Under the pieces are notes generated by a model. It had not been told where the DNA came from, searched no databases, and was given only the letters and a program-made list of their open reading frames with translations. Of a stretch of DNA of 64,000 bases, positions 37,195 to 41,459 are shown in pieces. Positions within the stretch are counted from its first letter, which is position 1; every line of letters starts with the position of its first letter. A program made the translations under genes and the position numbers. The DNA is from Bradyrhizobium sp. (GTDB lineage Bacteria > Pseudomonadota > Alphaproteobacteria > Rhizobiales > Xanthobacteraceae), in the NCBI RefSeq assembly GCF_016219575.1, contig NZ_JACRMG010000039.1:49189-113188 (forward strand), given 5' to 3'.

Positions 37195-37956
37195 ATGGAT
37201 CGGCCGGACCAAACCACGCATTTCGGCTTCAGGGACGTGCCCCTGGGCGAAAAGCAGACGCTGGTGAACGAGGTGTTTCACAGCGTCGCCTCGCGTTACG
37301 ACCTGATGAACGACCTGATGTCGATCGGCCTGCACCGGGCCTGGAAGGACATCATGGTCACCACGCTCAATCCGCCGAAGAACGACGCGCCGTTCCGTCT
37401 GCTCGACGTTGCCGGCGGCACCGGCGATATATCTTTCCGCGCCGCCAAGGCGTCGGGCAAAGGGTTCCGCGCCACCGTCTGCGACATCAATGTCGACATG
37501 CTCGAGGTCGGCCGCAACCGCGCGGCTGCGCAGCAGCTCGATGACCGCGTCGGGTTTGTCGAGGGCAATGCCGAGGCATTGCCGTTTCCCGATCGCAGTT
37601 TCGACGCCTACACCATCGCGTTCGGCATCCGTAACGTGCCGCAGATCGATCTCGCGCTGAAGGAAGCCTATCGCGTGCTGCGCCCCGGCAGCCGCTTCCT
37701 GTGCCTGGAATTCTCCACCGTCGACGTCCCCGGGCTGGACAGGATCTATGACCTGTTCTCGTTCCGCGTCATTCCGCCGCTCGGCCGTGCGGTGACTGGA
37801 GATGCCGAGTCCTACCGGTATCTCGTCGAATCCATCCGCAAGTTTCCCAAGCCCAATGCGTTTGCCGACATGATCCGCGCCGCCGGCTTCTCGCGCGTGC
37901 AATGGCAGAGCTTGTCGGGCGGCATCGTCGCGCTGCATTCGGGCTGGCGTTTGTGA
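37195..37956 (+). CDS. ubiE: demethylmenaquinone/ubiquinone methyltransferase UbiE
   Basis: [76 protein letters not shown] track opens at 37174. Confidence 0.96.
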
Positions 37957-39527
37957 TCTCGGCAATAACCCACATCGCAAGGCTCGCCCGCGCCGGTTTC
38001 GTGTTCGCGCGCGAGGGCGTGTTCGGCGTCATCGATCCGGGCCTGGTGCCACCGCCGGCGCAGCTGCTGATGAAACTGGCGCGGCTGGTGGAGCGGCCCG
38101 GCGCCAAGTCCGGCCCGCGGCTGTCTCGCGCGCTGACGCGGCTGGGACCGGCGTATCTGAAACTCGGACAGTTTCTGGCGACGCGGCCCGACGTGGTCGG
38201 CGTCGTCATGGCGCGGGATCTTGAGAACCTGCAGGATCGCCTGCCGCCGTTCTCGCAAGGAGAGGCCGAAGCCGCGGTCGCGCAATCGCTGGAAAGGCCT
38301 GTATCGCAGGCCTTTGCCAGCTTCGGCCCGTCAGTGGCGGCGGCCTCGATCGCGCAGGTGCATCGCGGCGAGGTGATGCGGGAGGGTGTGCGACAGCCGG
38401 TGGCGGTCAAGGTGCTCCGCCCCAATGTCGCTTCGCGCTTCCGCCGCGACCTCGGCGATTTCTTCTTTGTCGCGCGAAAGGCGGAAGCGCATTCGGCGGA
38501 AGCGCGGCGGCTGCGCCTGATCGAGGTCATCAACACCATGTCGCGCTCGGTCGCGATGGAGATGGATTTGCGGCTGGAGGCGGCCGCGATGTCCGAGATG
38601 GCGGAGAACACAAGCGACGATGCGGATTTCCGCGTGCCGACCGTGGACTGGGACCGCACTACCCACAACGTGCTGACGATGGAGTGGATCGACGGCATCG
38701 CGCTGAACGATCATGCGCGGCTAGCCCAGGCGCAGGTCGACCTGCCCGATCTCGGCCGCAAGGTGATCCAGAGTTTCCTGCGCCATGCGCTGCGCGACGG
38801 GTTCTTCCACGCCGACATGCATCCCGGCAACCTCTTCCTCGACGATGCCGGGCGGCTCGTTGCGGTCGATTTCGGCATCATGGGCCGGCTCGGGCTGAAG
38901 GAGCGGCGCTTCCTTGCGGAAATCCTGCTCGGCTTCATCACCCGCGATTATCGCCGCGTAGCCGAGGTGCATTTCGAGGCCGGCTATGTGCCGGGCCACC
39001 ACTCCGTGGAGAATTTCGCGCAAGCCATCCGCGCCATCGGCGAGCCGATCCATAATCGCACCGCCGAAGAAATCTCGATGGCGAAGCTGCTGACGCTGCT
39101 GCTCGAGGTCACCGGGCTGTTCGACATGCAGACGCGCCCGGAGTTGATCCTGCTGCAGAAGACCATGGTGGTGGTCGAGGGCGTGGCGCGCGGCTTCGAT
39201 CCCAAGCTCGACATCTGGAAGGTCGCCGATCCCGTGGTGCGGGAATGGATCGAGCGCAATCTCGGCCCGATCGGCCGTATCCAGGGCGCCATGGCAGGCG
39301 CCGGCGAACTGGGCCGGGTGGCGGCCAGCCTGCCCATCCTGGCCGGGCGCGCCGTGACCGTGCTGGAGCATCTGGAGAAGATGGTCCGGGAGGGCGTGAC
39401 GCTGTCGCCCGAAACGATTGCCGCCTTCAGCCGCGCCGAGGCCAGAAAGGACCGCTGGCGGACGATCGCAGTCTGGATCATCGCGCTGACCTTCATCGGG
39501 ATTCTCTTCGCCGTCATGCGGCTCTGA
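37953..39527 (+). CDS. ubiB: ubiquinone biosynthesis protein kinase-like UbiB
   Basis: ORF 37902..39527, GTG start at 37953 overlapping the ubiE stop; [48 protein letters not shown]. Confidence 0.94.
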
Positions 39528-39547
39528 TTGCAAGGCAATCATAGTTG

Positions 39548-39564
39548 TGCTAGCAATGCTAGCA
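39548..39564. promoter_or_regulatory. operator-like tandem palindrome upstream of the RHH-CoaBC gene
   Basis: TGCTAGCA-A-TGCTAGCA: two copies of a self-complementary octamer, 24 nt upstream of the ATG at 39589. Confidence 0.7.
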
Positions 39565-39588
39565 TCTGTTCAGTCCTGAGGGCCGCCC

Positions 39589-41004
39589 ATGGCCAGTCTC
39601 ACCATCCGCAAGCTCGACGACGCTATCCGCGACGAATTGCGGCTGCGCGCCGCCCGCAACGGCCGGTCGGTCGAGGACGAAGTGCGGGTGATCCTGCGCG
39701 AGGCCGCCCAGAACCATGCGCCCGCCGGGGCCACCCTGCCCGCTCCGGCCGAGTATTCGGCGGCGTCGCCGGACGCCGCCACCCGCCAGCCGCGCATCAC
39801 CCTGATCATCGCCGGCGGCATTGCCGCCTTCAAATCCCTCGAGCTGATCCGCCGGCTGAAGGAGCGCCAGATCGAGGTTCGCTGCGTGCTGACCAAAGCC
39901 GCGCAGCAATTCGTCACGCCGCTTTCCGCCAGCGCATTGTCGCATGAGCGCGTCTACACCGACCTGTTCGACCCCGAGAGCGAGTTCGACGCCGGACACA
40001 TTCGGCTGGCGCGAGACTGCGACCTGATCGTGGTGGCGCCCGCCACCGCCGACCTGATGGCGAAGATGGCTCATGGCCATGCCGACGATCTCGCCAGCGC
40101 CATCCTGCTCGCCACCAACAAGCCTGTCCTGCTGGCGCCTGCGATGAATCCGTTGATGTGGAACAATGCCGCCACCCGCCGCAACGTCATGCAGCTGCGC
40201 CGCGACGGCATCCACACCGTCGGCCCCAACGCAGGCGAGATGGCGGAAGCGGGCGAAGCCGGCGTCGGCCGGATGTCGGAAGCCACCGAGATTGCCGCCG
40301 CCGCAGAACACATGCTGCGACCGCCAAGGCCGCGGCCGCTAGCCGGCAAGCGCGTCCTGATCACCGCAGGGCCGACGCACGAGCCGATCGATCCCGTGCG
40401 CTACATCGCCAACCGCTCTTCGGGCAAGCAGGGTTTTGCGATTGCCGCAGCGGCGCAGGCCGCCGGCGCCGACGTCGTTCTGGTGACCGGTCCGGTCGAT
40501 CTGCGCGATCCCGCAGGGGTCACCGTGATCCGCGTGGAGTCCGCGCGCGACATGCTGCACAAGGTGGAAGCCGCATTGCCGGCCGACATCGCGATCTTTG
40601 CCGCAGCGGTCGCCGACTGGCGCGTCGCCAGCGAAGGCGCGCAGAAACTGAAGAAGACTTCCGCCGGGATGCCGCCGCTGCAGCTGGTCGAGAATCCCGA
40701 CATCCTGGCCACGGTATCCAAGCTCAAGGACAAGCGCCCGCCGCTTGTCGTCGGCTTTGCGGCCGAGACCGAGCACCTGATCGACAACGCCAAGGCCAAG
40801 ATCAAGCGCAAGGGCTGCGACTGGATCGTCGCCAATGACGTCTCGCCCGCATCGGGCGTGATGGGCGGCGATCGCAACACCGTGCACCTCTTGAAGCGGG
40901 ACGGCGCCGAGATCGACGTCGATTCCTGGCCTGTCATGACCAAGGAGCAGGTCGCGATGGAACTGGTGGCGCGTATCGCGCAGCAAGTTGGAGCGAAGGC
41001 GTGA
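39589..41004 (+). CDS. coaBC: N-terminal FitA/Arc-like ribbon-helix-helix domain fused to bifunctional CoaBC
   Basis: [40 protein letters not shown] (RHH) - linker - [21 protein letters not shown]...[17 protein letters not shown]...[27 protein letters not shown] (CoaB/CoaC); one uninterrupted frame. Confidence 0.93.
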
Positions 41005-41459
41005 GCAGCACTGTGAAGGTCGATATCCGCCAGCTGCCGCATGGCGAAGGCCTTGCGCTGCCGGCCTATCAGAGCGCCGATGCCGCCGGCCTCGACCTGC
41101 TCGCGGCGGTGCCGGAAGGCACGCCGCTGATCCTCGGCCCCGGCAAGCACGCGATGGTGCCGACGGGACTCGCGATTGCCTTGCCCCCAGGGTTCGAAGC
41201 ACAGGTGCGCCCGCGCTCGGGGCTGGCGGCCAAACACGGCGTCACGGTGCTCAATTCGCCCGGCACGATCGATGCGGATTATCGCGGCGAGATCAGCGTC
41301 ATCCTGATCAATCACGGCGAGGCCGCCTTTGCCATCCGCCGCGGCGAGCGCATCGCGCAGATGGTGATCGCGCCGGTGGTCCAGGCGCAGCTCGTGCCCG
41401 TCGTCTCCCTCCCGGACACCGACCGCGGCAGCGGCGGCTTCGGCTCGACCGGCCGCTAA
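41001..41459 (+). CDS. dut: deoxyuridine 5'-triphosphate nucleotidohydrolase
   Basis: 152 aa; [63 protein letters not shown]. Confidence 0.97.

Follow-up and report, generated by a model that had tools for sequence, protein, structure and literature searches.

A four-site octamer array upstream of an RHH-CoaBC fusion gene in Bradyrhizobium sp. as the probable operator of an antitoxin-derived domain

Several described systems connect ribbon-helix-helix (RHH) domains or metabolic enzymes with the control of transcription. PutA is a proline catabolic flavoenzyme in which an N-terminal RHH autorepressor acts on an operator in its own control region, and MetJ is a free RHH repressor of many genes that uses contiguous 8-bp met boxes. 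BirA and NadR are cofactor-pathway enzymes that also repress transcription, in their case with a helix-turn-helix. FitA-FitB of Neisseria gonorrhoeae and relatives is a toxin-antitoxin system with octamer half-sites upstream and with the PIN toxin directly downstream of the RHH antitoxin. That hosts can employ antitoxins as regulators of their own is generally accepted (PMC8987985).

The gene considered here lies in a window of 64,000 nucleotides (the 64-kb window) of Bradyrhizobium sp. DNA and encodes CoaBC, an enzyme of the coenzyme A (CoA) pathway, with an N-terminal RHH domain. It resembles PutA in that a metabolic flavoenzyme carries such a domain and has a candidate operator in its own control region, where the match between operator and fused DNA-binding domain is shown by their co-occurrence in relatives. 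However, the enzyme is unrelated and belongs to an anabolic pathway, the RHH domain probably comes from a FitA-like antitoxin, and the protein falls outside the PutA family, its enzymatic part being CoaBC rather than proline dehydrogenase or P5C dehydrogenase. The operator layout is similar to that of MetJ, with RHH dimers presumably placed on tandem self-complementary 8-bp sites, although the period here is 9 bp, a single target is supported, and the protein is not a MetJ member. As with BirA and NadR, a cofactor-pathway enzyme would act as a transcription regulator, but through an RHH domain instead of a helix-turn-helix and in another pathway. With FitA-FitB, the locus has in common the RHH family (PF22513, with FitA as the best PDB match) and the upstream octamer half-sites, four of which are present at 39525-39564. 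In contrast to FitA-FitB, the reading frame of the RHH domain continues into CoaBC, a dut-like gene comes next, and the half-site spacing is 9-14-9 bp, whereas RHH-PIN operons of the same bacterial family mostly show 19-20 bp; 9-bp tandem pairs placed 22-23 bp apart are a feature of the fusions. Because the toxin is absent, RHH-CoaBC is not considered a toxin-antitoxin system.

The fusion gene (39589-41004, forward strand) encodes 471 amino acids, for which two profile matches were obtained. PF22513 matches residues 2-40 with 57.1 bits against a curated cut-off of 27, and the CoaBC equivalog profile TIGR00521 matches residues 69-463 with 400.3 bits against a cut-off of 219.7, CoaBC being complete. 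Among PDB structures, the RHH part is best matched by gonococcal FitA; the kinship with FitA on which an earlier sequence-only reading of this DNA relied is confirmed by the profile match. The domain (39589-39711, forward strand) is the only FitA-like RHH domain in this genome, and in the structure model its helices span residues 11-24 and 28-41. The model has a pLDDT of 75.5 with a poor N-terminal strand, as expected for a monomer, and was used for the helices and the linker only. The linker between the RHH domain and CoaC (39712-39792, forward strand) differs in length and sequence among relatives and is predicted to be disordered, with a pLDDT below 50 at residues 42-64. Upstream lies ubiB (37953-39527, forward strand; PF03109 ABC1, 249 bits), whose first residue is an estimate, and downstream a dut-like gene (41001-41459, forward strand), taken from the list of open reading frames and named from sequence motifs, overlaps the end of coaBC and is probably co-transcribed with it. 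Other CoaC proteins contain an ACGD cysteine motif; the corresponding CoaC stretch (approximately 40234-40275) reads AE[RSAKPT]G in every family member for which the motif could be located, whether fused or unfused.

The gap between ubiB and the coaBC start spans 61 bp (39528-39588) and has a GC content of 52%, compared with 65% for the window. The tandem palindrome reported in this gap by the sequence-only reading, TGCTAGCA-A-TGCTAGCA at 39548-39564, was confirmed. The full 17-mer, TGCTAGCAATGCTAGCA, is the sole match in the 64-kb window at three or fewer mismatches (0.14 expected from shuffles), and both window copies of TGCTAGCA form the 39548/39557 pair, where two or more octamers were obtained in 4 of 100 shuffles. 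A second pair, TGATTGCA-A-GGCAATCA, which the earlier reading had missed, lies upstream at 39525-39541 with the same geometry. The whole array is composed of four half-sites over 39525-39564 at a spacing of 9-14-9 bp, and the tandem palindrome is the half of it nearer to the start codon; the octamers originally seen are real, but the layout has four half-sites rather than two. Half-site 1 (TGATTGCA, 39525-39532), read from the sequence, shares bases with the ubiB stop codon TGA (39525-39527), and half-site 2 (GGCAATCA, 39534-39541), 9 bp further on, departs from the pattern TGMNNKCA once. Half-sites 3 and 4 (both TGCTAGCA; 39548-39555 and 39557-39564) are the two octamers of the earlier reading, recognized in the sequence as well as by the matrix. 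When the window was scored with a 17-bp matrix built from relatives, the 64-kb window itself being held out, the pair at 39548 ranked first with 25.4 bits and the pair at 39525 second with 21.7 bits, followed by a next-best value of 5.4.

A coaBC match was found in 148 of 150 genomes of the same family, beginning at residue 1 (fusion) or, mostly, near residues 40-69. The fusion occurs in Bradyrhizobium, Tardiphaga, Nitrobacter, Afipia, Rhodopseudomonas and Pseudolabrys, among other genera. Upstream DNA was collected from 130 loci, comprising 84 fused genes, 5 with a separate upstream RHH gene and 41 without RHH. The 120 bp upstream of the 84 fused genes contain 250 TGMNNKCA octamers in total, where shuffles give 26 on average; pairs at a distance of exactly 9 bp number 108, against a shuffle mean of 0.06 and a shuffle maximum of 1. 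Upstream of the 41 genes without RHH, 4 octamers (4.1 expected) and no pairs were counted. The preferred distances from one octamer to another are 9, 13/14, 18, 22/23 and 31/32 bp. Of the 84 fused loci, 38 have two pairs separated by 22-23 bp and 34 have three consecutive octamers; these are the main layouts, and they do not occur without RHH. What is conserved is not the perfect palindrome but the TGMNNKCA octamer repeated at a 9-bp period.

Since the pattern was read by eye from the same sequences in which it was counted, the matrix tests carry more weight. A matrix score of at least 10 was reached by 83 of the 84 fused loci and by none of the 41 without RHH (Fisher p = 2e-32, uncorrected for relatedness), and a matrix trained on one clade and applied to other lineages recovered 34/34 fused loci against 1/41 without RHH. 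A further collection scan gave 80 loci, of which 77 carry the fusion; 56 fusions were new to the set, and all 56 scored at least 15. The octamers hence covary with the RHH domain in each of these comparisons, and the co-occurrence supports the earlier proposal of an autoregulatory operator for the RHH domain fused to CoaBC. All informative phylogenetic contrasts were concordant and none was opposed, but this test is underpowered, as only two to four contrasts, and few RHH gains or losses on the tree, are well supported. One fused locus (L041) scores just 7.3 bits, and where the RHH gene is separate, a good 9-bp pair is lacking in three (L095, L118 and L122) of five loci. In a second bacterial family (f24), four fused loci (L144-L146 and L149) and two with an RHH-PIN-coaBC arrangement (L150 and L151) also have 9-bp pairs. 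In four loci (L018, L037, L045 and L071), the array is kept 150-290 bp upstream of the start codon. Long repeat-like inverted stretches separate the array from the fusion gene in these four.

The array could instead be owned by another, unlinked transcription factor for coaBC or ubiB, with the RHH domain being incidental. The gene neighbourhood is common to most family members and we only infer that the RHH domain binds, both of which leave room for such a factor. However, the array is missing before all 41 coaBC genes without RHH, and RHH-PIN operons located at unrelated places have octamers of a similar kind in front of them. In addition, an exact-pattern scan of the genome gave 12 places (4 with a control pattern), among which the ubiB-coaBC array scores best, and the other matches (8 of 11 examined) are mostly within open frames or score far lower. 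From these considerations, ownership by an unlinked factor is judged very unlikely. A wider regulon was rejected from the same exact-pattern scan, in which the array site is top-scoring and most of the other examined places are inside open frames.

The repeats might also act at the level of RNA, as a hairpin that terminates ubiB transcription or controls coaBC translation. Both pairs of the window can indeed fold, with an energy of −25.5 kcal/mol and a z-score of −1.57; 15 of 200 shuffles do equally well. Among the octamer pairs of the fused genomes, only 36 of 114 are mutually complementary whereas all of them fit TGMNNKCA; moreover, a terminator-like T run was not found, and the array is retained far from the start codon where repeats intervene. 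A hairpin or terminator role was rejected because the hairpin is not conserved; this explanation is considered highly improbable.

The relationship with FitA-FitB can be followed in the RHH-PIN operons and at the coaBC locus itself. A short distance upstream of RHH-PIN operons at other places in the family, TGMNNKCA octamers of the TGCTATCA/TGATAGCA type are present; an example (L168) has TGATAGCA at −58 and TGCTATCA at −38. In the operons L164, L166-L169, L171 and L191, the octamers are mostly 19-20 bp apart, unlike the 9-bp pairs of the fusions. The octamer is thus considered to go with the RHH domain, and the 9-bp tandem to be typical of the CoaBC form.

In three relatives (L087, L118 and L122), the space between ubiB and coaBC is occupied by genes for an RHH protein and a PIN toxin, and the toxins of L087 and L118 have PIN Pfam matches. 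In L095, the RHH gene is kept and the toxin frame joins its N-terminal VIVLDTNVVSELMNP straight to the C-terminal GAGVEIIDPW, while in L105 only the toxin remnants VIVLD and, out of frame, GIEVIDPWND are left. In L093, which belongs to the genus of L105, CoaBC carries the fused RHH domain with a linker that has remained similar to the antitoxin tail, the identity with the antitoxin being 47% over 74 residues including the RHH domain; for the tail alone, 0-6 of 1000 shuffles do as well. Most fusions have a degenerate antitoxin tail. These loci likely form a series from the intact module through a toxin scar and a fusion with an antitoxin tail to a clean fusion, as in the window, where the direction is read from the scars because the tree does not root the changes. 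The RHH domain and its type of operator probably derive from a FitA-FitB operon that was located between ubiB and coaBC; the toxin would have been lost and the antitoxin then fused to coaBC.

At L150 (genome G217, family f24), the PIN-type protein following the RHH gene upstream of coaBC apparently differs from its counterpart at L151, a locus of the same genus, which suggests that the site has hosted at least two toxin-antitoxin modules. In another family (f16), L155 (approximately 1210-1999) encodes a CoaBC with an N-terminal XRE-type helix-turn-helix (HTH_3, 28.8 bits) and has GGATATATCC repeats upstream of the gene. The CoaBC of L147 begins with a different short domain, for which Pfam gave no match. 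L155 and L147 are possibly parallel fusions of DNA-binding domains to CoaBC.

Toxin remnants in relatives and the degenerate antitoxin tail would also be expected if the RHH domain and operator were a non-functional relic of the toxin-antitoxin system. However, eleven RHH residues (M1, A2, L4, T5, R7, R20, R26, S27, E29, E31 and R33) are invariant in 27 fusions while the linker has drifted, and the array is retained in nearly all fusions. The invariance of these residues together with the retention of the array indicates selection, and a mere relic is extremely improbable.

We regard it as highly probable that the array at 39525-39564 is an operator at which the antitoxin-derived RHH domain fused to CoaBC binds and represses coaBC, possibly together with dut. 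One RHH dimer would read each TGMNNKCA octamer, with adjacent dimers 9 bp apart, which is approximately one helical turn, and with the two octamer pairs 23 bp apart, which is approximately two helical turns. The RHH dimers may form between CoaBC subunits, and the oligomeric enzyme, by means of its flexible linkers, would fill the array when CoaBC is plentiful so that transcription of coaBC(-dut) is blocked. Mycobacterial CoaBC is a dodecamer and is inhibited by CoA and its thioesters (PMC7794376); if the present enzyme is dodecameric as well, one particle could present six RHH dimers.

The sign of the regulation is connected with the position of the promoter. The sequence-only reading had proposed a −35/−10 promoter here, but a promoter scan of 39350-39700 revealed no sigma-70-type site; the supposed −35 box, TTGCAA at 39528-39533, is part of the upstream half-site pair (pair 1). 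As no consensus promoter overlaps the array in the window, RHH-CoaBC may bind the array and activate, or have a role beyond the control of its own transcription. In many relatives, however, a TATAAT-like box lies close downstream of the array, where a bound protein would cover the −35 region or spacer, and the operators of antitoxins are in general repressor sites that overlap a promoter (review, PMC4803016). For these two reasons autorepression is preferred, and activation or another role is regarded as unlikely; for the window, which has no clear promoter, repression over activation is assumed.

In a limited literature search, no paper describing an RHH-CoaBC or antitoxin-CoaBC fusion was found. 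Discussions of how coenzyme A synthesis is controlled usually centre on the enzymes, whereas here a core enzyme of the pathway seems to be equipped with a brake on its own transcription. Every step by which a selfish toxin-antitoxin module became a housekeeping regulator is apparently preserved at this locus. More tentatively, CoaBC might be a coenzyme-A-responsive autorepressor, in which the ligand state alters the hold of the RHH arms on the operator and a captured toxin-antitoxin module has given rise to a one-protein loop, while in cases such as L155 other DNA-binding domains would have been joined to CoaBC independently and in parallel; we consider this conceivable but rather less than probable. 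If it is true, the supply of CoA in these bacteria would be governed by a feedback loop that consists of a single protein.
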